Source: Bacillus sp. 491mf
GTDB lineage: Bacteria > Bacillota > Bacilli > Bacillales > Bacillaceae_G
Direction: 5' to 3'
DNA length: 64,000 bases
Assembly (NCBI RefSeq): GCF_900112415.1
Contig: NZ_FOLV01000011.1
Span: forward strand, 62,001 to 126,000
This document shows, one piece after another, positions 11,655-57,757 of this stretch. Numbering within the stretch: position 1 is the stretch's first letter; the number at the start of each line of letters is the position of its first letter. The notes below the pieces were generated by a model. That model was not told the origin of the DNA. It did no database searches and was given only the letters and a program-made list of their open reading frames with translations. Position numbers and translations under genes: made by a program.

Positions 11655-11658
11655 TCAT

Positions 11659-11694
11659 GAGAAAAGAGGATGCGATATCGCATCCTCTTTTCTC
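11659..11694 (+). terminator. Terminator after oppA copy 1, a perfect 36-bp palindrome
   Basis: The 36 bases are exactly self-complementary (centre GATATC, outer arms GAGAAAAGAGGATGC). The right arm contains TTTT, so it can act as a terminator. Related but imperfect hairpins follow copies 3, 4 and 5. Confidence 0.8.
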
Positions 11695-11819
11695 AGTGCA
11701 CATTTTGAGGTGTGATGAATACATATGCAACATGAAATGGAAGGTTCACTATATTTCATGAAATAATTATAAATATTACTGTAAAAAAATAATTTTTTGA
11801 TTTTTTTTAATAATAAAAC

Positions 11820-11900
11820 TTTACAAAATAGAGAAAAATAGTAGAATGTTAATTAGAAGAAATTTTCTGGCAACTATACAGAAATATAAAGTTGTCAAAA
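11820..11900 (+). promoter_or_regulatory. Promoter and CodY-like dyad of oppA copy 2
   Basis: TTTACA at 11820-11825 and TAGAAT at 11842-11847, again with a 16-bp spacer. AATTTTCTGGCAACT at 11861-11875 matches 12 of 15 CodY positions. A partial second arm, AGTTGTCAAAAA, begins at about 11890 and retains pairing with changed bases of the first arm. Confidence 0.6.
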
Positions 11901-11946
11901 ATACCTCAAAGTTAGTATCACACATAATAATTAGGGAGGGTAAAAA

Positions 11947-13659: not shown

Positions 13660-13720
13660 GAATGAGTCAAATGAGGATATAATATAGTAGTCTGTGGGAA
13701 AATCCTAATAATATAAAAGA

Positions 13721-13764
13721 GTGATAGCTTTCTCGATGCATTTGAGGAAGCTATCACTTTTTTT
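13721..13764 (+). terminator. Intrinsic terminator after oppA copy 2
   Basis: GTGATAGCTTTCTC and GAGGAAGCTATCAC pair over about 14 bp around a short loop, followed by seven T. This hairpin is unrelated to the GATATC-centred terminators of the other copies. Confidence 0.88.
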
Positions 13765-13800
13765 ATGTATAAATGGTTGTACTCCTTCAAGGGATAGTGG

Positions 13801-13895
13801 CATAAAGTGAAACTTTAATCAGTGGACGTTTTGACGGGTGATGAATACATATGCAGTGTTATGCGAAATGGAAGTTTCACTTTATTTCATAGAAT
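13801..13895 (+). repeat. bcr1-like end fragments before oppA copy 3
   Basis: ATAAAGTGAAACTTTAATCAGTGG near 13804 equals the first 24 bases of the 155-bp element at 42608, and AGTTTCACTTTAT near 13880 is its terminal 13 bases inverted. The middle of the element is missing. The same inverted terminal piece lies before copies 4 and 5 in slightly altered form. This lies within the 379-bp gap between copies 2 and 3. Confidence 0.55.
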
Positions 13896-13950
13896 GTTAA
13901 TAAATATTACTGTAATAAAATAGTTTTTTTGAATTTTTAAATAATATAAC

Positions 13951-14006
13951 TTTACAAAAAAGAAAAAAACAGTAGAATATTAATTAATAGAAATTTTCTG
14001 ACAAAT
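13951..14006 (+). promoter_or_regulatory. Promoter and CodY-like box of oppA copy 3
   Basis: TTTACA at 13951-13956 and TAGAAT at 13973-13978 with a 16-bp spacer; AATTTTCTGACAAAT at 13992-14006 matches 13 of 15 CodY positions. The second inverted arm found before copies 1, 2 and 5 is deleted here, so the leader is about 45 bases shorter. Confidence 0.65.
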
Positions 14007-14038
14007 TTGTAGAAATATAAAATTAGGGAGGGTACAAA

Positions 14039-15742
14039 ATGAAAAAGATAAAAAAAATCACAGCTGTGGTAGCACCAGTATTAGCGATGAGTGTTGCGCT
14101 AACAGCATGTTCTGGGGCGGGGGATAAAAAAGCAAGTACTGAACTAAAAACTGGAGAAAAACAACCAGGAGGTAAGTTAGCGGCAAAACAAGTGCTAAAC
14201 TTAGTAGAAGCAAATGAAATTCCTTCAATGGATGTTTCTAAATCAACAGATACGGTTTCTTCTGTTATGTTAGGGAATACGATGGAAGGGTTATATCGTC
14301 TTGATAAAGATAATAAACCAATTCCAGGTATCGCAGAATCTTATAAAAAGAGCGATGATGGTAAAAAATATACATTTAAACTTCGGAAAGATGCAAAATG
14401 GTCAAATGGTGATTCAGTAACAGCAAAAGACTTTGTATTTGCATGGCAACGTCTATTAGATCCAAAAACGGCAGCTGAATATGCATTCATTATGTATGAT
14501 ATGAAAAATGCAAAAGCGATCAACGAAGGAAAATCGCCAGTCGATTCTTTAGGTGTAAAAGCAGTCGATGATTATACATTAGAGGTAGAATTAGATAATC
14601 CGGTTCCATATTTCCTAGGCTTAACAGCATTTACGTCTTTCTTACCGCTAAATGAAAAAGTTGTAAAAGAAAATGGAGATAAATACGGCTTAGAAGCTGA
14701 TAAGATGGTGTATAATGGACCATTTAAAATGACAGAATGGAAGCATGAACAAGGTTGGAAAGTAGTGAAAAACGACCAGTATTGGGATAAAGCAAATGTT
14801 AAGTTAGATGAAATCAATTGGAGCGTTGTAAAAGAACAATCTACTCGTGTGAACTTATATGAAAGCGGTCAACTAGATCGCGTCGGCTTAACGGCTGAAT
14901 ATGTTGATAAATACAAAGCGAATAAAGATGAATTTGGAACGCTATTAGAACCGTCAACGTACTTCTTACGTTTAAATCAAAAACGTAACGGTCAAGATAC
15001 AGTACTTAAGAATAAGAAAGTTCGTCAAGCAATTGCAATGGCATTTGATAAAAAAGCATTAGCAAATGTCATATTAAATGATGGATCTAAACCAGTAGAC
15101 GCTCTTATTCCAGAAAAGTTTACTGCTGGCCCGGATGGAAAGGACTACCATGAAACATATAAATCTACTGGCATTAAAACGGATTTAAAGAAAGCGAAAC
15201 AAGTTTGGGAAGATGCGAAAAAAGAATTAGGTAAAGAAGAGGTGACAATTGAGTTCTTAAACTATGATACGGATAGTGCAAAGAAAATTGGTGAATACTT
15301 AAAAGAACAGCTTGAGAAAAATTTACCAGGTTTAAAGATTAATATTAAACTGCAACCGTTTAAGCAAAAATTAAAATTAGAAACAGGGCAAGATTATGAT
15401 ATGTCTTATGCGGGCTGGACCCCAGATTATGCGGATCCAATGACATTCTTAGATATGTTCCAAACAGGAAATCCGCAAAATGAAATGAGCTATTCAAATG
15501 CGAACTATGATGAAATTATTAAGAAATCTCAGGGTGAATTGCTAACAGATCCGAAAAAACGTTGGGGAGAAATGGCAAAAGCTGAAAAAATCCTACTTGA
15601 GGATGAAGTAGCACTCGTACCGATGTATCAACCGGGACGAGCATTCTTACAACGTCCTACTGTACACAATATATACAAGCATAACGTTGGTTGCCAATAC
15701 AGCTACAAATGGGCATATATTACTGAAAAAGAAGGTAAATAA
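14039..15742 (+). CDS. Oligopeptide ABC transporter substrate-binding lipoprotein, OppA paralogue 3
   Basis: 567-residue lipoprotein, lipobox LTAC (Cys24). It belongs with copies 4 and 5 in a subgroup marked by SMDVSKSTDT, VRQAIAMAFDKKAL and MFQTGNPQNEMSYSN. The family signature WSNGDSVTAKDFVFAWQRL carries a serine where the other four have proline. It has an extra cysteine near the C-terminus (HNVGCQYSYKW) that the other copies lack. GGGAGGG is the ribosome site. Predicted peptide receptor with no transport genes nearby. Confidence 0.92.
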   Translation: MKKIKKITAVVAPVLAMSVALTACSGAGDKKASTELKTGEKQPGGKLAAKQVLNLVEANEIPSMDVSKSTDTVSSVMLGNTMEGLYRLDKDNKPIPGIAESYKKSDDGKKYTFKLRKDAKWSNGDSVTAKDFVFAWQRLLDPKTAAEYAFIMYDMKNAKAINEGKSPVDSLGVKAVDDYTLEVELDNPVPYFLGLTAFTSFLPLNEKVVKENGDKYGLEADKMVYNGPFKMTEWKHEQGWKVVKNDQYWDKANVKLDEINWSVVKEQSTRVNLYESGQLDRVGLTAEYVDKYKANKDEFGTLLEPSTYFLRLNQKRNGQDTVLKNKKVRQAIAMAFDKKALANVILNDGSKPVDALIPEKFTAGPDGKDYHETYKSTGIKTDLKKAKQVWEDAKKELGKEEVTIEFLNYDTDSAKKIGEYLKEQLEKNLPGLKINIKLQPFKQKLKLETGQDYDMSYAGWTPDYADPMTFLDMFQTGNPQNEMSYSNANYDEIIKKSQGELLTDPKKRWGEMAKAEKILLEDEVALVPMYQPGRAFLQRPTVHNIYKHNVGCQYSYKWAYITEKEGK

Positions 15743-15745
15743 TTA

Positions 15746-15782
15746 TGAGAAAAGAGGGTGCGATATCGTATCCTCCTTTTAC
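15746..15782 (+). terminator. Terminator after oppA copy 3
   Basis: Hairpin related to the palindrome after copy 1 (arms GAGAAAAGAGGGTGCGAT and ATCGTATCCTCCTTTT) with G-U pairs and mismatches. Confidence 0.65.
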
Positions 15783-15899
15783 TATACGCATTTTGCTATG
15801 TGATGAATACATATGCAGTTACATGAAATGGAGATTTCACTTTGTTTCATAGAATAATTATGAATAGTACTGTATTAAAATAATTTTTAACAATAAGAC

Positions 15900-15955
15900 T
15901 TTACAAAATTCTGAAAATTAGTAAAATATTAATTAGTAGGAATTTTCTGATAAGT
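15900..15955 (+). promoter_or_regulatory. Promoter and CodY-like box of oppA copy 4
   Basis: TTTACA at 15900-15905 and TAAAAT at 15922-15927 with a 16-bp spacer; AATTTTCTGATAAGT at 15941-15955 matches 13 of 15 CodY positions. The second arm is degraded. Confidence 0.65.
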
Positions 15956-16016
15956 ATGTAGAAACAAAAGGTTTCTTATAGTTAGTATCGTACATATAAA
16001 TTAGGGAGGGTACAAA

Positions 16017-17720
16017 ATGAAAAGGATGAAGAAAATCACAGCTGTAGTAGCGCCAGTATTAGCGATGAGCGTGGCTTTAACAGCATGTTCTGGGGCAGGG
16101 GACAAAAAAGCAAGTACAGAGCCGAAAAATGGAGACAAAAAGACAGAAGGTAAGTTAGCGGAAAAACAAGTATTAAATTTAGCAGAAACAGCAGAAATTC
16201 CTTCTATGGATGTTTCTAAATCAACAGATACAACTTCTTCTCTTATCTTAGGGAATACGATGGAAGGGTTGTATCGACTTGATAAAGAAAATAAGCCGAT
16301 TCCAGGGATTGCAGAATCTCATAAAAAGAGTGATGATGGTAAAAAGTATACATTTAAACTACGTAAAGATGCAAAATGGTCAAATGGCGATCCTGTAACA
16401 GCAAAAGACTTTGTATTTGCATGGAAACGTCTGTTAGATCCAAAAACGGCAGCTGAATATGCATTCATTATGTATGATTTAAAAAATGCAAAGGCAATTA
16501 ACGAAAGTAAATCGCCAGTCGATTCTTTAGGGATAAAAGCAGTAGATGATTATACATTAGAAGTAGAATTAGATAATCCTGTTCCATATTTCCTTAACTT
16601 AACTGCATTTACGTCTTTCTTGCCGTTAAATGAGAAAGTTGTAAAAGAACATGGAGATAAATACGGTTTAGAAGCTGATAAGATGGTGTACAATGGACCA
16701 TTTAAAATGTCAGAATGGAAGCATGAACAAGGCTGGAAATTAGTGAAGAACGACCAGTACTGGGATAAGGCAACTGTTAAGTTAGAGGAAATTAACTTCA
16801 GTGTTGTAAAAGAACAATCTACTCGTGTGAACTTATATGAAAGCGGCCAACTTGATCGTGTTAGTTTAACAGCTGAATACGTGGATAAATATAAAGCGAA
16901 TAAAGATGAATTTGGAACAACGTTAGATCCATCAACGTACTTCTTGCGTTTAAACCAAAAGCGTAACGGTCAAGATACAGTGCTTAAGAATAAGAAGGTT
17001 CGTCAAGCAATTGCAATGGCATTTGATAAAAAAGCATTAACAAATGTAATCTTAAATAATGGTTCTAAGCCAGTCGATTTTCTTATTCCAGAAAAATTAG
17101 CTAATGGCCCAGATGGAAAAGATTTCCGAGAAACATTTAAATCTGCAGGCATCAAAACGGATTTAAAGAAAGCGAAACAAGTTTGGGAAGAAGCGAAAAA
17201 AGAATTGGGCAAAGAAGAAGTGACAATTGAGTTTTTAAACTATGATTCAGATAATGCAAAGAAAGTTGGAGAGTACTTAAAAGAACAGCTTGAGAAAAAC
17301 TTACCAGGTTTAAAAGTGAATATGAAGCTGCAGCCGTTTAAGCAAAAATTAAAATTAGAAACTGCACAAGATTATGATCTGACTTATGCGGGCTGGAACC
17401 CAGATTATGCGGATCCAATGACATTCTTAGATATGTTCAAAACAGGAAATCCACAAAATGAAATGAGTTATTCAAATGCGAAATATGATGAAATTGTTAC
17501 GAAATCTCAAGGTGAATGGTTAACAGATCAGAAAAAACGTTGGGAAGAAATGAGTAAAGCTGAAAAAATCCTACTTGAGGATGAAGCAGCACTCGTACCG
17601 ATGTACCAAAGCGGAGGATCATTTTTACAACGTCCGACTGTACAAAAAGTATACAAGCATAACGTTGGTAGCCCACTCAGCTTCAAATGGACATATATCA
17701 CTGAAAAAGAAAGTAAATAG
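16017..17720 (+). CDS. Oligopeptide ABC transporter substrate-binding lipoprotein, OppA paralogue 4
   Basis: 567 residues, lipobox LTAC (Cys24), same subgroup as copies 3 and 5. Differences cluster in the likely ligand-facing parts: MYQSGGSFLQRPTVQKVYKHNVGSPLSFKW near the C-terminus departs from the otherwise constant VHNIYKHNVG. The signature block has AWKRL instead of AWQRL. Ribosome site GGGAGGG seven bases before the ATG. Probably a receptor with a shifted peptide preference. Confidence 0.92.
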   Translation: MKRMKKITAVVAPVLAMSVALTACSGAGDKKASTEPKNGDKKTEGKLAEKQVLNLAETAEIPSMDVSKSTDTTSSLILGNTMEGLYRLDKENKPIPGIAESHKKSDDGKKYTFKLRKDAKWSNGDPVTAKDFVFAWKRLLDPKTAAEYAFIMYDLKNAKAINESKSPVDSLGIKAVDDYTLEVELDNPVPYFLNLTAFTSFLPLNEKVVKEHGDKYGLEADKMVYNGPFKMSEWKHEQGWKLVKNDQYWDKATVKLEEINFSVVKEQSTRVNLYESGQLDRVSLTAEYVDKYKANKDEFGTTLDPSTYFLRLNQKRNGQDTVLKNKKVRQAIAMAFDKKALTNVILNNGSKPVDFLIPEKLANGPDGKDFRETFKSAGIKTDLKKAKQVWEEAKKELGKEEVTIEFLNYDSDNAKKVGEYLKEQLEKNLPGLKVNMKLQPFKQKLKLETAQDYDLTYAGWNPDYADPMTFLDMFKTGNPQNEMSYSNAKYDEIVTKSQGEWLTDQKKRWEEMSKAEKILLEDEAALVPMYQSGGSFLQRPTVQKVYKHNVGSPLSFKWTYITEKESK

Positions 17721-17726
17721 TCATTT

Positions 17727-17762
17727 AAAAAGAGGATGCGATAGCGTATTCTCTTTTTACTG
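17727..17762 (+). terminator. Terminator after oppA copy 4
   Basis: Hairpin of AAAAAGAGGATGCGATA with CGTATTCTCTTTTT, a weaker relative of the palindrome after copy 1. Confidence 0.65.
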
Positions 17763-17888
17763 TGCACATTTTGACAAGCGATGAATACATATGCAGTTAC
17801 ATGAAATCGAAGTTTCACTTTATTTTATAGAATAATTATAAAAATTGATGTATTAAAATAATTTTTATAATTTTTTTAATAATAACAC

Positions 17889-17974
17889 TTTACAAAAAAT
17901 AAAAAATTTGTAGAATATTAATTAATAGGAATTTTCTGATAACTATATAGAAACATAAAGTTATTAGAAAAATT
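17889..17974 (+). promoter_or_regulatory. Promoter and CodY-like dyad of oppA copy 5
   Basis: TTTACA at 17889-17894 and TAGAAT at 17911-17916 with a 16-bp spacer. AATTTTCTGATAACT at 17930-17944 matches 13 of 15 CodY positions; the inverted arm AGTTATTAGAAAAATT at 17959-17974 pairs with it apart from one G-U and one extra base. Confidence 0.65.
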
Positions 17975-18016
17975 ATCATAGTTAATAGCGTACATATAAA
18001 TTAGGGAGGGTACAAA

Positions 18017-19720
18017 ATGAAAAAGATGAAAAAAATCACAGCTGTAGTAGCACCAGTGTTAGCGATGAGCGTGGCTTTAACAGCATGTTCTGGGGCTGGG
18101 GACAAAAAAGCAAGTACAGAGCCGAAAAGTGGAGACAACAAAACTGAAGCTAAGTTAGCAGCAAAACAAGTGTTAAACTTAGTAGAAGCAAATGAAATTC
18201 CTTCAATGGATGTTTCAAAATCAACCGATACAGTTTCTTCCCTTATTTTGGGGAATACGATGGAAGGGTTATATCGTCTTGATAAAGATAATAAGCCGAT
18301 TCCAGGGATCGCAGAATCTCATAAAAAGAGCGATGATGGTAAAAAGTATACATTTAAACTACGTAAAGATGCAAAATGGTCAAATGGAGACCCTGTAACA
18401 GCAAAAGATTTCGTTTTTGCATGGCAACGTCTTCTAGATCCGAAAACAGCAGCTGAATATGCATTTATTGCATACGATATAAAAAATGCAAAAGCGATTA
18501 ACGAAGGGAAATCACCAGTTGATTCTTTAGGTGCAAAAGCGGTAGATGATTATACATTAGAAGTAGAATTAGATAATCCGGTTCCATATTTCCTAGGCTT
18601 AACAGCATTTACATCTTTCTTACCGCTAAATGAAAAAGTTGTAAAAGAACATGGAGATAAATACGGTTTAGAAGCTGATAAGATGGTGTATAATGGACCA
18701 TTTAAAATGTCAGAATGGAAGCATGAACAAGGCTGGAAAGTAGTGAAAAACGATCAGTACTGGGATAAATCCACAGTTAAGTTAGATGAAATCAATTGGA
18801 GTGTTGTAAAAGAACAATCTACACGTGTGAACTTATATGAAAGTGGACAACTTGATCGCGTTGGTTTAACAGCTGAATACGTTGATAAATATAAGGCAAA
18901 TAAAGATGAATTTGGCACGCTGTTAGAACCGTCAACGTTCTTCTTACGTTTAAACCAAAAACGTAATGGCCAAGATACAGTATTTAAGAATAAGAAAGTT
19001 CGCCAAGCAATTGCGATGGCATTTGATAAAAAAGCATTAACAAATGTCATATTAAATGATGGTTCTAAACCAGTAGATGCCCTTATTCCAGAAAAGTTTG
19101 CTGCTGGTCCGGATGGGAAAGATTACCGTGAAACATTTAAATCTACAGGCATCAAAACGGATGTAAAGAAAGCGAAACAAGTTTGGGAAGATGCGAAAAA
19201 AGAATTGGGTAAAGAAGAAGTAACAGTTGAGTTCTTAAACTATGATACGGATAGTGCAAAGAAAATTGGTGAGTACTTAAAAGAACAGCTTGAGAAAAAC
19301 TTACCAGGTTTAAAAGTGAATATGAAACTTCAGCCGTTCAAGCAAAAATTAAAATTAGAAACAGCGCAAGATTATGATTTCTCTTACGCAGGATGGAACC
19401 CAGATTATGCGGATCCAATGACATTCTTAGATATGTTCCAAACAGGAAATCCTCAAAATGAAATGGGCTATTCAAACGCAAAATATGATGAAATTATTAA
19501 GAAATCTCAGGGTGAATTGCTAACAGATCCGAAAAAACGTTGGGAAGAAATGAGTAAAGCTGAAAAAATCTTACTTGATGATGAAGCAGCACTCGTACCG
19601 ATGTTCCAAAGTGGAAAATCATTTTTACAACGTCCTACTGTACACAACATTTATAAGCACAATGTTGGTTCTCAATACAGCTACAAATGGGCATATATCA
19701 CTGAAAAAGAAGGTAAATAA
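18017..19720 (+). CDS. Oligopeptide ABC transporter substrate-binding lipoprotein, OppA paralogue 5
   Basis: 567 residues, lipobox LTAC (Cys24), closest to copy 3 (IPSMDVSKSTDTVSS, GTLLEPST, IKKSQGELLTDPKKRW). It reads AYDIKNAKAINEGK where the other copies have MYDLKN or MYDMKN. Last copy of the array; the region behind it leads into an unrelated methyltransferase gene. Ribosome site GGGAGGG. Role as for the other copies, a surface peptide receptor. Confidence 0.92.
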   Translation: MKKMKKITAVVAPVLAMSVALTACSGAGDKKASTEPKSGDNKTEAKLAAKQVLNLVEANEIPSMDVSKSTDTVSSLILGNTMEGLYRLDKDNKPIPGIAESHKKSDDGKKYTFKLRKDAKWSNGDPVTAKDFVFAWQRLLDPKTAAEYAFIAYDIKNAKAINEGKSPVDSLGAKAVDDYTLEVELDNPVPYFLGLTAFTSFLPLNEKVVKEHGDKYGLEADKMVYNGPFKMSEWKHEQGWKVVKNDQYWDKSTVKLDEINWSVVKEQSTRVNLYESGQLDRVGLTAEYVDKYKANKDEFGTLLEPSTFFLRLNQKRNGQDTVFKNKKVRQAIAMAFDKKALTNVILNDGSKPVDALIPEKFAAGPDGKDYRETFKSTGIKTDVKKAKQVWEDAKKELGKEEVTVEFLNYDTDSAKKIGEYLKEQLEKNLPGLKVNMKLQPFKQKLKLETAQDYDFSYAGWNPDYADPMTFLDMFQTGNPQNEMGYSNAKYDEIIKKSQGELLTDPKKRWEEMSKAEKILLDDEAALVPMFQSGKSFLQRPTVHNIYKHNVGSQYSYKWAYITEKEGK

Positions 19721-31281: not shown

Positions 31282-31316
31282 GCAAAGTAAGGAATGAACC
31301 TTACTTTGCTTTTTGT
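31281..31316 (+). terminator. Intrinsic terminator
   Basis: AGCAAAGTAAGG and CCTTACTTTGCT form a perfect 12-bp stem followed by TTTTTG. Confidence 0.9.
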
Positions 31317-31381
31317 TTTGCGCATATTTACGTATGTTTTTGAATATCGTATATGGATTCAGTGAAGAAGGGGGGATATCT

Positions 31382-33241
31382 ATGCAATTGTATGACAAAG
31401 TAAAATACGAAATGGAGCGCCAGGTTACAGCGTTACGTACGATGCAGCAAAGAGATGGAACATGGCGCTTTTGTTTTGAAGGAGCCCCGCTTACGGATTG
31501 CGCGATGATTTTCTTGTTACGTTTGTTAAGAAAAGAAAAAGAAATCGAACCATTTGTAGCAAGGCTTACTTCTTTGCAAGCAAATGAAGGAATGTGGAAG
31601 TTGTATGAAGATGAGCCAAATGGGAATCTTTCTGCTACCATTCAAGCTTATGTTGCATTGTTAGCTTCTAGAGAATATAAGAAAGAAGACAGAATTATGC
31701 GCCGTGCAGAACAATTTATTCGCGAACAAGGTGGAATTACAAATGCTCACTTTATGACGAAGTTGATGTTAGCATTGCATGGACAATACAATTATCCTCC
31801 ATTGTTTCACTTCCCTATGCCTTTTTTCTTTCTACCGGATCATTCCCCGTTCAGTATGTATGAGGTGAGTAATACTGCTCGCATTCATTTCGTGCCTACG
31901 ATTATTTGTATGAATAAGAAATTTGTAGTAGGAGAAATTGACGTTCCTGATTTGAATCATATAGTGGGTGCAAATAAATCAAATTGGTTTCATTCTCAGC
32001 GTTCGTCAGTTTGGCAAACCATTTTATCTGAAGGAAAAAAGCTAATTTCGTATCCGTATACACTTCATCAAAAAGGGTATAAAGCAGCGGAACGTTTTAT
32101 GTTAGAACGTATAGAAGGAAATGGAACACTTTACACTTATGCGAGCGCTACTTTTTATATGATTTATGCCCTCCTTGCTCTCGGTCATTCTATACATTCT
32201 CCTATTATCGAGAAAGCTGTATTAGGGATACAGTCGTACATATGGAATACAAAAAATGGTGCCCATTTACAAAACTCACCTTCAACCGTGTGGGATACTG
32301 CTCTTTTAAGTTACGCTTTGCAAGAAGCAAATGTGTCAGAAGAGGATGCGATGATTGAACGAGCAAATCGTTATTTATTAAGGAAGCAGCATACCTCTTA
32401 CGGAGATTGGCATGTTCATGCACCTTCTTTACCTCCTGGCGGATGGGGGTTTACTGATACGAATACGATTGTACCAGATTGTGATGATACAATAGCAGCG
32501 CTGCGTTCACTTACTTCTATCACAAAGAAAGATAAGAAAGTGAAACGAGCTTGGAATGAAGGGATACATTGGATTCTTGGAATGCAAAATAAAGATGGGG
32601 GTTGGGGAGCATTTGAGAAGAATGTTGATAAGCATATGTTTATGCATATTCCTCTCGATAGCGCAGAAGATATGATTCTCGATCCGTCTACAGCAGATTT
32701 AACAGGAAGGGTACTTGAATTTTTTGGAACGTATGCACCGGATGAAATAAACAGTTATGATTTACACCGTGCAATGCAGTGGCTTTTACGTAATCAAGAA
32801 CAAAATGGTTCTTGGTATGGAAAATGGGGAGTTTGTTACATATATGGTACATGGGCTGCTGTAACAGGTCTGCGGGCAAATGGTTTACCAAATAATCATC
32901 CAGCAATAGAAAAAGCAGTACGGTGGTTAGAGATGATTCAACATCGTGATGGAGGCTGGGGGGAATCGTGCAAAAGTAGTAAGGAGAAACGATTTATTTC
33001 AACGTCTTTTAGTACACCTTCTCAAACTGCATGGGCTCTAGATGCGCTAATTGCTGTATGTGATATGGAAACACCATCTATTCAAAACGGAATCAATTAT
33101 TTGTTAGAAAACGCCTTTCATAATATTGAATATCCGACTGGAGTAGGACTTCCCGGAGAGTTTTATATTCGTTATCATAGTTATCATCGTTTATTTCCTT
33201 TACTGACCTTTGCACATTATGTGAAAAAATACAAAAAATAA
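31382..33241 (+). CDS. sqhC: Squalene-hopene cyclase family terpene cyclase
   Basis: 619 residues from ATG 31382 (AGGGGGG upstream). The catalytic acid motif DXDD is D366-C-D-D369 in VPDCDDT, and several QW repeats are visible (QQRDGTWRF, QNKDGGWGAF, QEQNGSWYGKWG, QHRDGGWGE). Enzymes of this class cyclise squalene to hopanoids, or in Bacillus C35 polyprenes to sporulenes and related terpenols; sequence reading does not decide between them. A membrane-associated protein. An SDR gene in the same direction follows after the small convergent yfhD-like gene. Confidence 0.9.
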   Translation: MQLYDKVKYEMERQVTALRTMQQRDGTWRFCFEGAPLTDCAMIFLLRLLRKEKEIEPFVARLTSLQANEGMWKLYEDEPNGNLSATIQAYVALLASREYKKEDRIMRRAEQFIREQGGITNAHFMTKLMLALHGQYNYPPLFHFPMPFFFLPDHSPFSMYEVSNTARIHFVPTIICMNKKFVVGEIDVPDLNHIVGANKSNWFHSQRSSVWQTILSEGKKLISYPYTLHQKGYKAAERFMLERIEGNGTLYTYASATFYMIYALLALGHSIHSPIIEKAVLGIQSYIWNTKNGAHLQNSPSTVWDTALLSYALQEANVSEEDAMIERANRYLLRKQHTSYGDWHVHAPSLPPGGWGFTDTNTIVPDCDDTIAALRSLTSITKKDKKVKRAWNEGIHWILGMQNKDGGWGAFEKNVDKHMFMHIPLDSAEDMILDPSTADLTGRVLEFFGTYAPDEINSYDLHRAMQWLLRNQEQNGSWYGKWGVCYIYGTWAAVTGLRANGLPNNHPAIEKAVRWLEMIQHRDGGWGESCKSSKEKRFISTSFSTPSQTAWALDALIAVCDMETPSIQNGINYLLENAFHNIEYPTGVGLPGEFYIRYHSYHRLFPLLTFAHYVKKYKK

Positions 33242-50226: not shown

Positions 50227-50584
50227 TGAACGTAGCAAATAACCACTGAAAATGATTTAGTCAATAAGTGAATGGAATGAAAACGACGAAACCTTTCTAT
50301 GAATATTCCAATACTAGAAAGAATGAATAGAATGATTTTTTTCTATTTTACGTTTGATAAAACACTATTACCTAGTTTAATTATAAGAATATAATAAAAA
50401 TAGTTAATAGTACCCCGCTTGTTAAAACAGAGGCATTCCATCACGTATCAACTACTAATCATTTTTCAATTGAATTAAATTATAAAAATATATATTAATC
50501 TAGGGTACATTTGCGAGTGAAGAATCATAGAATATGAGATGAAGGGATTACAAAAATATGAAATCTAGATTAAGGAGAAATGAA

Positions 50585-51133
50585 ATGAAATCATACTTTA
50601 ATACAAGAAGAGTAAGTAGAGGAGATATAGAAAAATATAAGCTCATTGGAGATGGGAAGGATGGGGAAGTATATCAAATATCCCATAATAAATGTGTGAA
50701 AGTATTTTTTCTAGAAAAAACGCAAAAACAAGAGTTGGAAGCTCTTAAAGTTGGACAATCATCACCTATTATTCCACGACTGTATGAATATGGAGACAAT
50801 TATATTGTTATGGAGTATGTACAGGGAATATCACTTGCACGTCATTTGAAAAGAGAAAAAAAATTTACAGAAGAATTAACTGGAAAAATAATACTAATGT
50901 TGGGCGAATTGAAAAAATTAGGATTTACTAGATGGGATACGGAAGTGAGACACGTTTTAATAAATGAAGAAGGACAGCTAAAAGTCATTGATCATAAAAG
51001 AGCCTTTACTTCAAATAGTAAAGTGCCTACTAAGTTATTAAAAGGATTTCAAAAATTTGGGCTGGATCAGGAATTTTTAAGAGGTGTGAAGAAAGCACAT
51101 CCTTCCGTATACAATTCATGGATGAAGTACTAA
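50585..51133 (+). CDS. Small protein kinase-like protein (YrzF type) with altered motifs
   Basis: 182 residues from ATG 50585, seven bases after AGGAG; a further ATG at 50558 is possible. It has a glycine loop (IGDGKDGEVYQI), a lysine in CVKVFF, hinge YIVMEYVQGISLARHL and a catalytic region, but where kinases have HRD it reads TRWDTEVRHVLIN, and DFG is replaced by DHKRAF. The same style occurs in small Bacillus proteins such as YrzF. It lies before the deacetylase operon, but a 289-bp gap separates them. Activity uncertain. Confidence 0.72.
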   Translation: MKSYFNTRRVSRGDIEKYKLIGDGKDGEVYQISHNKCVKVFFLEKTQKQELEALKVGQSSPIIPRLYEYGDNYIVMEYVQGISLARHLKREKKFTEELTGKIILMLGELKKLGFTRWDTEVRHVLINEEGQLKVIDHKRAFTSNSKVPTKLLKGFQKFGLDQEFLRGVKKAHPSVYNSWMKY

Positions 51134-51422
51134 TAAAAAACGAATTGTCAGGGGGTTATCACTTTAATATGAAAGCCATTTCTGGTTTTTGATTCTTGCT
51201 TTTCTAAAATATACGGCCGATACCTGTTTGTGTATAGCTAATTGCTAAGATATTCACATTGGTGATAAAAGGTGCTCTTTATCTCATAGGGAGAAATACA
51301 CATGTATTTATATAGCTGAACCATTGGTTATTAGTAATAAATAAAAACAAGTTTTCCGCTAATGACAGTTTCTTTTTGTGGTACTAATCATAAATTAGGT
51401 AGTACAAGGAGTGAAAATACTA

Positions 51423-52079
51423 ATGAAAGAGTGTATATTAGTCATTGGCGCACATCCCGACGATGAGTTATTAGGATCTGGCGGGACTTTAAAAAGATTA
51501 GTAGAAGAAGGCCATCAAGTAATTTCAATCATTACTGCTCTAGGAAGAAAAGAGCAAGCTCATCACATACAGCAATTAGGCAGGTGTGCAAACAAGGAGA
51601 TTGGTATTGAAGAGGTGATATTCCTCGAGCACAGTAATTTAGAGTTGGAACTAATTCCACTGCACCAATTAACGAAAGAAATTGAACAATTAATAAATAT
51701 CTATAAACCAAGCAAAATCTTTACCCATCATTATGGAGACCTCAATAAAGATCACTACGTTACTTTTCAAGCGGTTTTGACTGCGACACGTCCCCTATCA
51801 AACCAACAACCAATCGAATTGATTACATTTGAAACCGTTTCCTCAAGCGAGTGGAATATCCACACGAATGATAAATCTTTCAAACCCAATTATTTTGTGA
51901 ACATTACCGATCAAATAGATTCGAAAATTGCTGCGCTTAAACATTACGATGTAGAAATGAGAGATTTTCCGCATCCTCGTTCATACGAAGGGGTTCAATA
52001 TTTAGGAAGAGTAAGGGGAATGACGGTCGGTGTACCATATGCCGAGGCATTCGAAGTGATAAGGAGGGTTTGGAAGTGA
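51423..52079 (+). CDS. PIG-L (LmbE) family zinc deacetylase
   Basis: 218 residues from ATG 51423, with AAGGAG upstream. The zinc motif AHPDDE is at residues 10-15, and the second ligand region is THHYGDLNKDHY. Members remove acetyl groups from N-acetylglucosamine units (GlcNAc-PI, GlcNAc-malate in bacillithiol, GlcNAc-inositol in mycothiol, teicoplanin-type products). First gene of the five-gene operon; its last bases overlap the next start (GTGA). The substrate is likely made by one of the two glycosyltransferases beside it. Confidence 0.85.
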   Translation: MKECILVIGAHPDDELLGSGGTLKRLVEEGHQVISIITALGRKEQAHHIQQLGRCANKEIGIEEVIFLEHSNLELELIPLHQLTKEIEQLINIYKPSKIFTHHYGDLNKDHYVTFQAVLTATRPLSNQQPIELITFETVSSSEWNIHTNDKSFKPNYFVNITDQIDSKIAALKHYDVEMRDFPHPRSYEGVQYLGRVRGMTVGVPYAEAFEVIRRVWK

Positions 52080-53407
52080 AAAAGAGATTTGAGTTTCCTT
52101 ATTCTTATGTAATTAAAACATTAGATAAGTATTATGGAGTTCATGCATACTCGATGCAAAAAAAGAAGGATACAGTGGAAGAGCGTAATATAAATAGAGA
52201 GTCAAAGACTTATAAAAAGAAAAAGCTCTCAATATTAATTGCTACATTTTGGGATTATCCTCATATTGGGGGGTTATCAAATTATATTACGGCACTTAGT
52301 GAAGGGTTAAGAAAACAAGGCCATCACGTAGACATCGTATCTCCTAATCAATTTTCTAAAAGTAGAGCCGAAAAGATGCGTCAAGCGGTTGTTCCGGAAT
52401 TAAAAAGTTTTTTTAATACACGATATGGAAGTTCTAATAGCACAATTATTAGAAATCAAAAAAATATGTATATTTACGAAAGAATGCTGCTCGAAAATAT
52501 TAACTTTAAAAAATATGATATCTTTCATGCGCAAGATATATTTACAGCTAATATATTAGGAAGAATCAATGAACAGTATGGAAAAAGATTAATATTCACA
52601 CCTCATGGTATGTTTACTTTTAATCGTATAAAGTTCGGCATATTTAAAAAGGGTTCGCTAGAAGAGTTTTATCATATGGTCTTAGAAAAAAAGGCAATTG
52701 ATAATGCAGATCATATTATTATTCTCAGCGATTCATTTCGCCGTCCATTAATGAAGTTAGGGGCAAAACAACAGAATATGACAACTGTATTAACTGGCAT
52801 TGATTATCCCCATAAGTATCATACTGAAAATACATCATCATCACATAAGAAAATCGTCATTACATGTGTAGCTAGATTAGGTCCAAGAAAAGGCCATAAC
52901 ATATTACTTGATGCTCTTTCACAAATCGGAAAGAAATACACAGATAATGTAAAAGTTCTCATTGTCGGAGACGGTGAGATGAGGCATTCGTTAGAGGATC
53001 AAGTTAATCATTTGAATCTTTCCATGGTAGAGTTTTTAGGGCAAAGAAATGATGTTCCAGATATTTTAAGTAAAACTGATATTTTTGTACTTCCAACTTT
53101 AAACGATAGCCTACCTATTTCTATTATAGAGGCAATGCATAGTGGAGTTTGTGTCATTTCTACGCCATCGGGAGGTATACCTGAACTTGTTCGCCATTCT
53201 AAGACAGGTATTCTTGTTGAGGGAGGAGATGCAATAGAACTGGCACGGGCATTAAAATATGTCATTGTAAATAAACAGGAACGAGAGCAATTAGGGAAAA
53301 ATGCAAGAATATTCGCTAAAAAGTATTTAACTAGAGAGACAATGATAGCGAATATCGAACAAATCTACAGAGAGCGTTTTGATAAGGAAGGATTCTATGA
53401 ATCATGA
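52076..53407 (+). CDS. GT4-family glycosyltransferase
   Basis: 443 residues from GTG 52076, with AAGGAGGG eight bases upstream and a 4-base overlap with the deacetylase gene. The GT-B fold shows in PHIGGLSNYITALSEGLRKQGHHVDIVSPNQF at the N-terminal domain, the nucleotide-sugar domain in CVARLGPRKGHNILLDAL, and the E-x7-E-like region in PISIIEAMHSGVCVISTPSGGIPELV. An N-terminal ~50-residue basic extension is unusual. It transfers an activated sugar to an unknown acceptor. Paralogous to the gene at 55673. Confidence 0.86.
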   Translation: MKKRFEFPYSYVIKTLDKYYGVHAYSMQKKKDTVEERNINRESKTYKKKKLSILIATFWDYPHIGGLSNYITALSEGLRKQGHHVDIVSPNQFSKSRAEKMRQAVVPELKSFFNTRYGSSNSTIIRNQKNMYIYERMLLENINFKKYDIFHAQDIFTANILGRINEQYGKRLIFTPHGMFTFNRIKFGIFKKGSLEEFYHMVLEKKAIDNADHIIILSDSFRRPLMKLGAKQQNMTTVLTGIDYPHKYHTENTSSSHKKIVITCVARLGPRKGHNILLDALSQIGKKYTDNVKVLIVGDGEMRHSLEDQVNHLNLSMVEFLGQRNDVPDILSKTDIFVLPTLNDSLPISIIEAMHSGVCVISTPSGGIPELVRHSKTGILVEGGDAIELARALKYVIVNKQEREQLGKNARIFAKKYLTRETMIANIEQIYRERFDKEGFYES

Positions 53408-54572
53408 ACATGCAGCGGTCGTGTTGGATTTAAGTGCCAATGGGATTGGGATTATTAGAAGTTTAGCGAGAAAAGGAATTCGTGTTTATGCATTTGATGT
53501 AGAGAAACCATATAAAATAGGGAAGTCACGCCTTGCTTCATGCGGAATATGCCCAAGTCCTTTATCTGAAGAAAAATTATTACTAGTTTTTCTAATTGAC
53601 TTCGCTAAAAAGTTAAATTTGAAACCTGTTTTGTGTACAGGTGCTGATGACTATGTAATATTCATTTCAAAATATCGAACGGAACTGTCTAAATATTATT
53701 TGTTTTTATTTCCTGAACATTCGTTGATTGAAGAAACATTAAATAAGCAAAAAATGCATGAGCTGGCAACAAAGCATAATATTCCATGTCCTAAAACGTA
53801 TGAGATTAAGACAAATAAACAATTGGAAGAAGCGATATCGAACCTAGATTTCCCGTGTATATTAAAGCCGGTTTTAGGACATGAGTTTCGAAAAAAGATA
53901 AACCAAAAGGCAATTCTTATACAAAATCCAGATCAACTTAGAAATGAGTATAAATCGTATCGACAGCACGGGAAGCTAATTCTTCAGGAAATCATTCCTG
54001 GTGATAATCAATGTTTTTATAAAGTTGCCACATTTTATGATGATAACATGAATTTATTGGCATTATTTTCTTTACAAAAGAATCATCAGTTCCCAGCTGA
54101 ATTTGGAACAGGAGCTCACATTGTTAGTAAAGAAGTTCCAGAATTAGTAGATATATGTCTACCTTTTTTTGAGAAGATTAAGCTTAAAGGTATTGCTATG
54201 GCAGAGTTTAAAAAGGATCCTCGAGATGGCGTTTATAAGTTTATTGAAATAAACCCTCGTTTTTGGTTAACTCACAGTCTGACAGGAGCTGCTGATATTG
54301 ATTTTGCTTACATGTATTATTTATATTTAACGAGGCAAAATCCAACTCCAAGACTTAAACAAGTAGACGGTATCAAATGGATTTATCTTGTGCGATATTA
54401 TTTAACATTCTGCACTAAGAAAAAAAGGGCAGAAATGACGTGGAAAGATTTTTATAAAGGGTTACGCGGTAAAAAAGAATATGCTTTGTTTGCATGGGAT
54501 GACCCAATGCCGTTCATTAGAAGCGCATACTCTCACTTGATAAACGCCTGGAAACGAAAACGAAAGGAATGA
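53397..54572 (+). CDS. ATP-grasp carboxylate-amine ligase
   Basis: 391 residues from ATG 53397, behind AAGGAAGG, overlapping the upstream gene by 11 bases. The N-terminal part AAVVLDLSANGIGIIRSLARKGIRVYAFDVE is the pre-ATP-grasp domain of the carboxylate-amine (D-aspartate ligase-like, COG3919) group. The ATP-grasp core has FPCILKPVLGHEF with the lysine, KLILQEIIPGDNQ, and the metal site MAEFKKDP...FIEINPRFW. It would join a carboxylate to an amine, possibly the amine freed by the deacetylase. Soluble. Confidence 0.83.
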   Translation: MNHEHAAVVLDLSANGIGIIRSLARKGIRVYAFDVEKPYKIGKSRLASCGICPSPLSEEKLLLVFLIDFAKKLNLKPVLCTGADDYVIFISKYRTELSKYYLFLFPEHSLIEETLNKQKMHELATKHNIPCPKTYEIKTNKQLEEAISNLDFPCILKPVLGHEFRKKINQKAILIQNPDQLRNEYKSYRQHGKLILQEIIPGDNQCFYKVATFYDDNMNLLALFSLQKNHQFPAEFGTGAHIVSKEVPELVDICLPFFEKIKLKGIAMAEFKKDPRDGVYKFIEINPRFWLTHSLTGAADIDFAYMYYLYLTRQNPTPRLKQVDGIKWIYLVRYYLTFCTKKKRAEMTWKDFYKGLRGKKEYALFAWDDPMPFIRSAYSHLINAWKRKRKE

Positions 54573-55633
54573 ACACATTGTACGAAGTAAAAACATTATC
54601 CCGTTTAATTGAAAAGTTAAGAATTACAGAAAAACTCTCTTATTCAATGAATAAGAGAGTTGCAATTGATTACGGTAAAATAGAATGTTTAAAATCTACA
54701 AGAAGAAGTAGCATTTACAAATTATTTATTACATCAGGAGCTAATAATGTTCCGATTGTTTTAAAAGTATATAATTCAACAGATTACAAAAATGAAGTAG
54801 AAATTAATATATACGATACAGCTTATCCTGTATTGAAAGAATTTCTTCCTGAAATATATCATATTGAAAAAAATGGAGACGAGACCTGGATATTTATGGA
54901 GTTTGTACGCCAAATACGCGGTCAGATAACTTTTCTCCCTAAACATTTTGACTATATTATTCCCGCTGTTGCTAAACTTCATGCGCGTACATTTGAAGAC
55001 AATAGTAAAAAACATAAAGATGTTTGGAAATCTTGGTTACCTATTTATGAATCGAGCCGCATGAGAAATGATCGGACGAAACAAATTGAAAAGACGATTG
55101 ATTTTCTCAATGACGGAATGAAAGACGATCGGATAAGCGGGATTATTAAGCCTTATTATAAATCACTTATAAAACTATGTAATAAGGGACCGGATCTTTT
55201 TCCGGAATTATTTCAAAATGGTTCATCGATCACGCATGGAGATCTTCATTTGCAAAACATTTGCAGTAATAATGTGACACTACATGCACCGTGGAATATC
55301 CAGTTTATCGATTGGGAGTCAACTAAATATGCACCTGTCTGGTTTGATATGGTTGTTCTAGTTGAAATCTTAATGGGATTTAGGAAAGATTGGCAGAACA
55401 GAGCCGAAGAAATTCGTACACATTGTGTGGAAGTCTATGCAAAAGAAATGCAGAAGAATGGCATAAACTTTAAAACAAAGCCAATTGACCTTTATAAGAT
55501 GGCGTATTTGCAGAGAACATTAGAAAAAGGGTTGCATACTCAGCTGCGAAGAATATTTGATAACCGTGGCGGTGAATTATTGCCATATCACCTTGAAAAA
55601 ATTTCTACCTGGGGAAGTGAACTAGGTTTATAG
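54569..55633 (+). CDS. APH/CotS-like phosphotransferase
   Basis: 354 residues, 4-base overlap (ATGA) with the ATP-grasp gene. The aminoglycoside phosphotransferase fold shows in the catalytic loop ITHGDLHLQNI (H223, D225) and the metal-binding FIDWESTKYAP. Members phosphorylate aminoglycosides, choline, homoserine or other hydroxyl substrates; CotS and CotI of B. subtilis spores belong here. In this operon phosphorylation of a sugar-containing product, or self-protection, is possible. Confidence 0.83.
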   Translation: MNTLYEVKTLSRLIEKLRITEKLSYSMNKRVAIDYGKIECLKSTRRSSIYKLFITSGANNVPIVLKVYNSTDYKNEVEINIYDTAYPVLKEFLPEIYHIEKNGDETWIFMEFVRQIRGQITFLPKHFDYIIPAVAKLHARTFEDNSKKHKDVWKSWLPIYESSRMRNDRTKQIEKTIDFLNDGMKDDRISGIIKPYYKSLIKLCNKGPDLFPELFQNGSSITHGDLHLQNICSNNVTLHAPWNIQFIDWESTKYAPVWFDMVVLVEILMGFRKDWQNRAEEIRTHCVEVYAKEMQKNGINFKTKPIDLYKMAYLQRTLEKGLHTQLRRIFDNRGGELLPYHLEKISTWGSELGL

Positions 55634-55672
55634 TATATATGCTATTTTTATCATTAGCTGAGTTAGGAGGAG

Positions 55673-57001
55673 ATGCTTCTGAATACAGCAAAGGAGAGAC
55701 GAAGTGAATGTAATTATCCTTTCCATACGAGCCTACTAAAAATCATGGATGAATACTACCAAATAGAAAATCAAAAGGATCATATAATCGAACCGTTTCA
55801 AACGTTTGGAATCAAAAATGATAGCACGTTAAGTAAAACAAAAAAATTAAAAATTCTTTATGTAACATTTTTGAAATACCCTAATACAGGGGGATTATCA
55901 AACTATATTACTTCGTTAAAAACAGGCTTTGAAAAGTATGGTCATGATGTAGATGTCATCTCTCCTACTCAAATGACCGCAGTTCATATAGAGCAAGAAG
56001 TTCCGAAGGCTGCGAAATACACAAGAGATTTTATGTTACAACGTTATGGTATAGTAAATGAAAAAATTATTAAAAACACGAGTTTTTTGAATGTTTTTAA
56101 GTCTTATTTAAGAGAAAAAAGCCTAGAGCAATATGATATCTTTCATGCACAAGATTTATTCGCTGCTTTTTTATTAGGACAACTAAACCTAGAATATAAG
56201 AAACCACTTTTTTTTACACCACATGGGCATTTTACAAAAAGTCGATTGAAATTTGATAAAATAAAAAAAGGATCGATTGAAGAAGCGTATTTTAGTGAAA
56301 TTGAAAAACAGGGAATAAGAGCGGCTGATCAAATCATAACAATCAGCAATTCCTTTCATACTCCTTTAAAAGAATATGGGGCAAAGACAGAACAATTGAT
56401 TACTGTTCATACAGGTATACACTTTCAGCAAGATTTTATACCTAAACAGGATTGTAATAATAATCTAGTAATTTCCTGCATTTCCCGCCTTTCTCCTAGA
56501 AAAGGTCATGACATTTTTTTAAAAGCACTTTCACAAATTCAACAAGATTTATCAAATGTAGAGGTATGGATTGTTGGAGATGGTGTTATGAGAGAAAGGC
56601 TTGAAAATCAAGTGATACAGCTTGGTCTTGACAGGATTAAATTTTGGGGAAGAAGAACAGATATACCAAAAATTCTTTCTTCTTCCTCAATCTATGTTTT
56701 ACCTACCATTAACGATAACTTTCCAATTTCCATTATTGAAGCTATGCTTTCTAGTCAAGCTATTATTACAACAAATTGCGGTGGAATACCAGAAATGATT
56801 CAAAACGGAAAAACAGGGATCATTTGTGAACCGGGCAACGTTCAACAACTTTCTGAGGCTATTAAATTGCTGTTAACGAATAAGAGTCTTCGTGAGCAAT
56901 TGGGAAAAGAGGCACAGAATTATTCACAGCAACATTTAACTCAGGATGTAATGGTTTCAAAGATTGAAAGAGTATATTACTCTTTTATGAATAATATGTA
57001 G
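55673..57001 (+). CDS. GT4-family glycosyltransferase, paralogue of the gene at 52076
   Basis: 442 residues with the same layout as the protein at 52076: PNTGGLSNYITSLKTGFEKYGHDVDVISPTQM, CISRLSPRKGHDIFLKALS and PISIIEAMLSSQAIITTNCGGIPEM. The ATG at 55673 sits only two bases after AGGAGG (55665-55670), too close for normal initiation. The CTG at 55679, eight bases away, may be the true start; both give nearly the same protein. It lies 39 bp behind the kinase gene. The pair suggests two sugars or two acceptors in the product. Confidence 0.82.
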   Translation: MLLNTAKERRSECNYPFHTSLLKIMDEYYQIENQKDHIIEPFQTFGIKNDSTLSKTKKLKILYVTFLKYPNTGGLSNYITSLKTGFEKYGHDVDVISPTQMTAVHIEQEVPKAAKYTRDFMLQRYGIVNEKIIKNTSFLNVFKSYLREKSLEQYDIFHAQDLFAAFLLGQLNLEYKKPLFFTPHGHFTKSRLKFDKIKKGSIEEAYFSEIEKQGIRAADQIITISNSFHTPLKEYGAKTEQLITVHTGIHFQQDFIPKQDCNNNLVISCISRLSPRKGHDIFLKALSQIQQDLSNVEVWIVGDGVMRERLENQVIQLGLDRIKFWGRRTDIPKILSSSSIYVLPTINDNFPISIIEAMLSSQAIITTNCGGIPEMIQNGKTGIICEPGNVQQLSEAIKLLLTNKSLREQLGKEAQNYSQQHLTQDVMVSKIERVYYSFMNNM

Positions 57002-57133: not shown

Positions 57134-57168
57134 GAGTGCGTGTATTTATGACATGCACTCATTTTTTA
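57134..57168 (+). terminator. Intrinsic terminator of the glycosyltransferase operon
   Basis: GAGTGCGTGT and ACATGCACTC pair with one G-U, followed by ATTTTTTATT. Confidence 0.82.
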
Positions 57169-57358: not shown

Positions 57359-57757
57359 TTAATCAAAAAACACGATGGAATGAATCGCAGTTAAAGTTTC
57401 TTTCAGCGTTATATTTGCTTGATTAGAAGTAGGACAAGAGCACATTACCACTTCCCAATATTGCGCTCCTGTTCTTTGAAGATGGGTAATTGATACTCTA
57501 CATCCACCTTTGTTTCCTGCAACTTCTGATCTCGTAAGCACTACACCGGAGAAACCTTTTTGCCTCAATTTGTCCACTATAGCTCTTTTATGGTCTGCAA
57601 GGGTGTGTTGACCCATATCCCTGATCCTAGTGTCAAACGTAAGTGCACAACCTTGACGACTATCCATAGGAAAAGGTTGTTTATCTAACATATACGGGTA
57701 ATTATATTGATGATGATAAGGATTATATTGGTATTGTCCATTTGATTGCCAATACAA
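57359..57757 (-). CDS. Uncharacterised 132-residue protein with Tyr-rich N-terminus
   Basis: TTG start at 57757 behind AAAGAGGTGAT on the minus strand. Residues 1-25 are rich in Tyr, Gln, Asn and Pro (YQYNPYHHQYNYPYM), like many spore-surface proteins. The rest looks globular (DHKRAIVDKLRQKGFSGVVLTRSEV, RVSITHLQRTGAQYWEVVMC) with four or five cysteines. No family recognised. A 26-base part of the gene is copied 300 bp upstream of itself. Confidence 0.7.
   Translation of the reverse strand: MYWQSNGQYQYNPYHHQYNYPYMLDKQPFPMDSRQGCALTFDTRIRDMGQHTLADHKRAIVDKLRQKGFSGVVLTRSEVAGNKGGCRVSITHLQRTGAQYWEVVMCSCPTSNQANITLKETLTAIHSIVFFD
57591..57616. repeat. 26-bp direct repeat, copy inside the gene
   Basis: The core CTTTTATGGTCTGCAAGGGT is found here and again at 57891-57916; the 26-base units differ by one base (AGCTC versus AGTTC). 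Confidence 0.8.

Follow-up and report, generated by a model that had tools for sequence, protein, structure and literature searches.

A conserved sugar-modifying gene cluster of Bacillus relatives with a probable role at the outermost spore layer

The 64,000-nucleotide stretch of Bacillus sp. 491mf analyzed here (the window; contig NZ_FOLV01000011.1, positions 62,001 to 126,000) contains an operon of five genes, encoding in order a PIG-L de-N-acetylase, a GT4-family glycosyltransferase (GT4a), an ATP-grasp ligase, an APH/EcKL-like kinase and a second GT4-family enzyme (GT4b). The operon is an evolutionary unit that recurs in many relatives of Bacillus. We propose that it is probably expressed in the mother cell, where it would assemble and decorate a short glycan containing hexosamine, destined for the outermost layer of the spore (exosporium or crust). 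A first-pass annotation of this DNA had preferred a novel thiol or other natural product as the output, a proposal that the genomic context does not favor. Rather, the spore-coat glycan that it offered as an alternative fits better, given CotX-type genes on all four plasmids examined, a sigma-K-like promoter box and the link between plasmid pBM600 and the exosporium described in the available part of PMC4674009.

Results

Conservation of the cluster

The five open reading frames (ORFs) are packed on the + strand within 51423-57001, with overlaps of 4, 11 and 4 bases followed by a gap of 39, which confirms the layout first described for them. Scanning genome contigs with the ATP-grasp alignment through two peptide patterns, in a non-exhaustive search, yielded 20 loci. 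They fall under seven genus names: Priestia, Jeotgalibacillus, Bacillus, Fictibacillus, Halobacillus, Rossellomorea and Pontibacillus; among the Bacillus carriers are velezensis, siamensis, nakamurai and ectoiniformans. In 19 of these 20 the genes follow one another as PIG-L, GT4a, ATP-grasp, kinase and GT4b. Because it recurs so widely, the order is above chance, and the genes stay together as an evolutionary unit instead of turning up as unrelated single genes. Jeotgalibacillus soli is the sole exception: all five genes are present, divided between one site with smallK (see below), GT4a, ATP-grasp and kinase, and another with PIG-L (67% identity) and a GT4b (50%). In the draft genome of Bacillus ectoiniformans, GT4a and the ATP-grasp protein share a single frame of 826 amino acids (locus L017, 8696-11176), a fusion if the draft sequence is correct.

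Two further genes accompany the cluster. A homologue of smallK, the kinase-like gene at 50558-51133 that the first-pass annotation had omitted, lies upstream in 18 of the 20 genome loci, and a GalE-like epimerase gene, scoring below the GalE cut-off, directly downstream in 14. On plasmids of Priestia, where we examined four loci (L001-L004) out of 37 records with an ATP-grasp match, the core of PIG-L, GT4a, ATP-grasp and kinase appears in the same order in all four, and GT4b is absent at the site. The smallK homologue of L001 (10204-10700, - strand) is in two pieces in different frames and is probably broken on this plasmid.

Among 299 sampled genomes of the order, 41 contain an ATP-grasp match at 1e-30, 20 of them at 516 bits or more. 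PIG-L, GT4a, ATP-grasp and kinase are adjacent in 19 of these 20, with J. soli again the exception. Of the remaining positive genomes, two score about 385 bits and 19 no more than 215; they contain ATP-grasp relatives, and none of the other cluster genes lies beside such a relative in the 14 loci fetched. Likewise, no PIG-L, GT4 or kinase gene was found near the ATP-grasp genes of about 40% identity in L037 (8425-9612) and L038 (8836-10023). Pairwise distances of the four core proteins correlate strongly (rho 0.83-0.92), those of GT4b (0.66-0.70) and smallK (0.56-0.72) less so; such correlation is expected from shared descent and is no independent test of function.

Enzyme families and conserved residues

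Pfam agrees with the families first assigned to the five proteins, weakly so for the ATP-grasp protein (Table 1). None of the five exceeded a curated NCBIfam cut-off among the matches listed (for the two GT4 enzymes, the best 25 of 42 and of 39), and in the libraries searched (Pfam, NCBIfam and PDB) no characterized pathway matched at high identity.

The AHPDD motif of the PIG-L protein is invariant in a five-row alignment. Its closest solved relatives, at low similarity, are diacetylchitobiose and LmbE-type deacetylases (8bgn, 2e-14; 2ixd, 3e-9), which implies that a free hexosamine amine would be formed. GT4a and GT4b are 44% identical and, judging from a tree that omits the distant GT4 of L002, are old paralogues (split support 0.966, one misfit row). 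The match of the ATP-grasp protein to CPSase_L_D2 (4e-5) scores 23.8 bits, over the cut-off of 19.8. Across 20 rows (the window and 19 of the 20 genome loci, L022 being left out), K157, E198, E270, E284, N286 and R288 are invariant; we take these residues to bind ATP or metal. At the level of its sequence, the protein thus carries both the ATP-grasp fold signature and conserved residues of the family.

In the APH/EcKL-like kinase, K66, H223, D225, N230 and D248 are invariant in 14 rows (the window and 13 of the 20 genome loci). It has no PDB homologue at E 1 with the single protein or at 0.1 with the profile. CotS proteins of the spore coat have an APH-like fold, and the first-pass annotation had mentioned CotS-type kinases in its spore-coat alternative. 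A link of the kinase to them fails by the NCBIfam models: the kinase has no match at E 0.01, and no TIGR02906 match is listed at the kinase gene in 12 carrier genomes. We therefore rejected CotS membership. In smallK, D-x4-H replaces the D-x4-N of kinases in all 25 aligned sequences that cover the loop (L001 does not), and D-[HL]-K stands where DFG is expected. The protein may be an atypical kinase or a pseudokinase.

Membership of the bacillithiol or mycothiol pathways was likewise rejected, as the first-pass annotation had anticipated for bacillithiol. The cluster shares the GT4 plus PIG-L logic of BshA/BshB/BshC but scores far below the Bsh cut-offs: the PIG-L protein reaches 52 of 182.5 bits for BshB1 and 37.9 of 195.25 for BshB2, and GT4a and GT4b reach 108.3 and 98.7 of 273.7 for BshA. 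None of the five proteins matches BshC, the ATP-grasp protein included, and bshC is present over its cut-off elsewhere in all 20 carrier genomes (in two pieces in genome G014).

The region upstream of PIG-L

CATAnnnTA, which we take to be the sigma-K -10 consensus, occurs within 110 nucleotides of PIG-L in 22 of 30 loci and 11 of 15 lineages (shuffle mean 0.79, maximum 3 in 300 runs), compared with 28 of 175 control upstream regions. Fisher tests give 7e-10 and 6e-6, but the rows are related to one another. The set holds 30 loci (L006 has no PIG-L at the site), and the controls exclude L001-L004 and PIG-L genes. The 15 lineage representatives and the relaxed patterns were picked post hoc; CATAnnnTA alone is a fair test because it was already in the sigma-K model beforehand. 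Expression during sporulation is a prediction.

A conserved element, TCCGCTAATGACAGTTTCT, sits 15 nucleotides ahead of the sigma-K-like box. Its exact sequence has a single match in each of 7 of the 20 genomes, five at the operon and two elsewhere, and no coat gene was recognized by eye at the two off-operon matches. Just upstream of PIG-L in nine loci (L011-L016, L018, L021 and L022), a near-perfect palindrome around CAGACATTAGCCCTGTGCTAGTGTCTG overlaps the conserved element and is a candidate terminator or operator.

Spore context

On all four Priestia plasmids, Coat_X genes share islands with the four-gene core, and the records of two of them annotate an 'exosporium protein D'. On pBM600 of Priestia megaterium QM B1551, the gene nearest the PIG-L start among these is CotW-like, at a distance of 3.0 kb, and two Coat_X genes follow at 3.4-4.0 kb. 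According to the available part of PMC4674009, QM B1551 strains without pBM600 have no exosporium, with a role of pBM500 not excluded. The available part of PMC4656864 assigns CotX1, CotX2 and CotW to BMQ_pBM60028-30 and places green fluorescent protein fusions of CotX1 and CotX2 outermost; from gene order and Pfam, these tags would be the CotX/CotW-type genes near the cluster. Five of the 20 genome loci have a collagen-like gene close to the cluster; in one of them (L018) Pfam confirms it (Collagen 5e-35, with BclA_C under its cut-off). Coat or exosporium genes of recognizable families accompany the cluster on the four Priestia plasmids and, through this collagen-like gene, at those five loci, and not in the other loci. 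Finally, SpoIVA is present in every ATP-grasp-positive genome of two samples (41 of 41 and 10 of 10), and none of the genomes lacking SpoIVA (0 of 11 and 0 of 88) shows an ATP-grasp match at 1e-30.

Several observations weigh against a spore role or are neutral. Most genomes of the two samples have SpoIVA anyway (288 of 299 and 211 of 299), so that the apparent confinement to spore formers does not reach significance (Fisher p 0.37 and 0.11). Many genes besides the cluster are on pBM600, and the loss of the exosporium is not gene-specific. Housekeeping genes (the rplI side and a DnaB-type helicase) flank the cluster in the velezensis group, where a Coat_F gene is found about 4.7 kb upstream; neither there nor in the window does a recognizable coat gene directly adjoin the operon. 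The first-pass annotation had looked to co-occurrence with bsh or coat genes; bshC does accompany the cluster throughout, whereas Coat_X does not (6 of 20 carriers vs 8 of 20 non-carriers). It had also suggested looking for a mother-cell promoter before 51423: a CATAnnnTA box is present there, but full -35/-10 models gave no signal, the median shuffle p being 0.29 for sigma-K, 0.59 for sigma-E and 0.73 for sigma-A. The TCCGCTAATGACAGTTTCT element is nearly confined to the operon, so it defines no coat regulon and by itself does not point to a sporulation regulon. A literature search for papers joining spore and exosporium with PIG-L or ATP-grasp found none.

Other features of the window

The features in and around the operon are collected in Table 1. 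Downstream, the operon is adjoined by a gene for a 132-amino-acid protein (57359-57757, - strand) with a Tyr/Asn/Gln-rich N-terminal start and no Pfam or NCBIfam match, which might be a coat protein. Elsewhere, five tandem lipoprotein genes of 567-570 amino acids (9948-19720), by eye of oligopeptide-binding type, are 74-92% identical to one another and, from these identities, represent a recent local expansion. Two 65%-identical proteins (1906-3117 and 8418-9617), by eye of amino-acid-binding type, flank transporter genes that look branched-chain-type by eye, and a protein resembling squalene-hopene/sporulene cyclases by eye is encoded at 31313-33241. DUF3900 shows 66-68% identity in 10 of 10 Priestia genomes searched, so the window probably does not come from Priestia.

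Table 1. Positions of the cluster and its associated elements in the window.
Feature	Position	Strand	Basis
smallK, atypical protein-kinase-like protein, 191 amino acids	50558..51133	+	Pfam Pkinase 1e-7; linkage; aligned catalytic loop
Conserved upstream element TCCGCTAATGACAGTTTCT	51355..51373	+	Conserved across upstream regions; exact-pattern genome scan
Sigma-K-like -10 box CATAAATTA (CATAnnnTA)	51389..51397	+	34 nucleotides ahead of PIG-L start codon
PIG-L de-N-acetylase, 218 amino acids, ATG start	51423..52079	+	ORF; Pfam PIG-L 8e-20
GT4a glycosyltransferase, 443 amino acids, GTG start, overlap 4	52076..53407	+	ORF; Pfam Glycos_transf_1 (6e-40 and 3e-39 for the two GT4s)
ATP-grasp ligase (predicted), 391 amino acids, ATG start, overlap 11	53397..54572	+	ORF; Pfam CPSase_L_D2 (weak)
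APH/EcKL-like small-molecule kinase, 354 amino acids, ATG start, overlap 4	54569..55633	+	Pfam EcKL 6e-8, APH 3e-6
GT4b glycosyltransferase, 442 amino acids, ATG start, gap 39	55673..57001	+	ORF; Pfam Glycos_transf_1; GT4a paralogue
Terminator-like hairpin, then T-run	57134..57160	+	Consensus match only

Discussion

The enzyme set suggests that a hexosamine glycan loses acetyl and gains amide and phosphate groups inside the mother cell. GT4a would transfer an N-acetylhexosamine onto an acceptor, from UDP-N-acetylglucosamine or, where the epimerase is linked, from UDP-N-acetylgalactosamine (UDP-GalNAc). PIG-L would then remove the acetyl group to leave a free amine, and the ATP-grasp enzyme is predicted to activate a carboxylate as acyl phosphate and ligate it, in the simplest case to that amine through an amide bond. 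Phosphate would be added to a sugar hydroxyl by the APH/EcKL-like kinase, and a further sugar by GT4b. The acceptor, the order of steps and all substrates are predictions, and the hexosamine, free amine, amide and phosphate logic already outlined in the first-pass annotation remains plausible as such an order. With spore-surface glycans produced in the cytoplasm of the mother cell, facing the assembling coat, an exporter would be dispensable, and this would account for the lack of a linked one.

Two other readings would place the product away from the spore. The parallel between the enzyme set and BshA/BshB plus a ligase, together with the sub-threshold BshB1 and BshA matches, is what one would expect of a small molecule, secreted or intracellular, such as a thiol-like cofactor or natural product made by glycosylation, de-N-acetylation, amide ligation and phosphorylation. 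We consider this improbable, as the set includes no cysteine-adding enzyme or thiol chemistry, the carriers have bacillithiol besides, and the coat/exosporium neighbors and the sigma-K-like box point elsewhere. Decoration of the vegetative cell surface or of an exopolysaccharide, with the proximity to spore genes on Priestia plasmids due to chance, appears quite improbable. The conserved unit lacks a flippase, polymerase or ABC exporter, and the enrichment upstream of PIG-L is in CATAnnnTA and not in sites of the sigma-A type. It would, however, agree with the resemblance of the GT4 enzymes to exopolysaccharide-type GT4s (EpsE and PglH, both sub-threshold), with the frequent absence of adjacent coat genes at chromosomal loci, and with distant ATP-grasp relatives (27-29%; L070 and L071) in clusters that by eye are polysaccharide-type, with deacetylase-like and flippase-like genes.

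Within the proposed spore-glycan pathway, it is somewhat unlikely that the ATP-grasp enzyme is something other than an amide ligase acting on the PIG-L-made amine, for example a kinase or an enzyme that couples amino acids to sugar acids. No curated model comes close to the family (the best, PRK12767-type, gives 60.8 of 218 bits), and its profile matches a broad range of ATP-grasp enzymes in PDB, including, weakly, inositol 1,3,4-trisphosphate 5/6-kinase. By contrast, at L046 (6168-9759) a relative of 30% identity has as neighbors a MurE-family ligase (above the TIGR01085 cut-off) and a racemase (above the one for cysteate racemase). Amino-acid ligases are typically found in such company, which favors ligation of an amino acid or carboxylate. 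The neighbors at L047 look similar by eye, as does the MurE at L045; loci of this type are possibly a separate amino-acid ligation system. The Aslfm-type D-aspartate ligase, reportedly described by Bellais in 2006, is said to be an ATP-grasp enzyme coupling an amino acid with an amine, and it offers an analogy only in how the enzyme may work.

Exosporium glycan loci of like kind include those of the BclA/anthrose type. The enzyme set here appears to differ from known mother-cell spore-glycan loci, while by analogy it would work alike. In the available part of PMC7439481, legionaminic acid, a spore-crust sugar of B. subtilis, is synthesized in the mother cell and then transferred to the forespore surface. 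The sps/legionaminic acid locus likewise comprises a soluble, transporter-free set of sugar enzymes, which would act in the mother cell on the outermost layer and make unusual amino sugars. Unlike our cluster, that locus, as far as that part describes it, has no PIG-L, ATP-grasp or APH-like kinase named.

A more specific idea, which we regard as rather unlikely, concerns one species. A free hexosamine amine with a phosphate ester is just what PIG-L and a sugar kinase would give in a galactosamine-6-phosphate polymer. Spores of B. megaterium presumably contain this polymer, on which the literature searched yielded no paper, and we know of no genes for it; the strain ATCC 12872 we take to be QM B1551, whose pBM600 carries the cluster. 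The cluster could then be the missing gene set of B. (Priestia) megaterium: a linked or plasmid-borne epimerase would supply UDP-GalNAc, GT4a/GT4b would build the chain, PIG-L would deacetylate it and the APH/EcKL-like kinase would add the 6-phosphate. The ATP-grasp enzyme has no obvious role in such a polymer, and might cap or anchor the chain through an amide. If this were true, a phosphorylated, amidated amino-sugar coating would be common to the spores of many Bacillaceae.

The available part of PMC7439481 describes the localization, nature and structure of spore-surface glycans as mostly unknown. A compact, widely conserved enzyme set with predictable chemistry (free amine, amide and phosphate), carried by a single plasmid in a tractable laboratory strain and also found in the velezensis group, brings one of these glycans within reach of direct tests. 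The outermost layer, where the product of this cluster would probably lie, is also the one on which the adhesion and hydrophobicity of spores depend.

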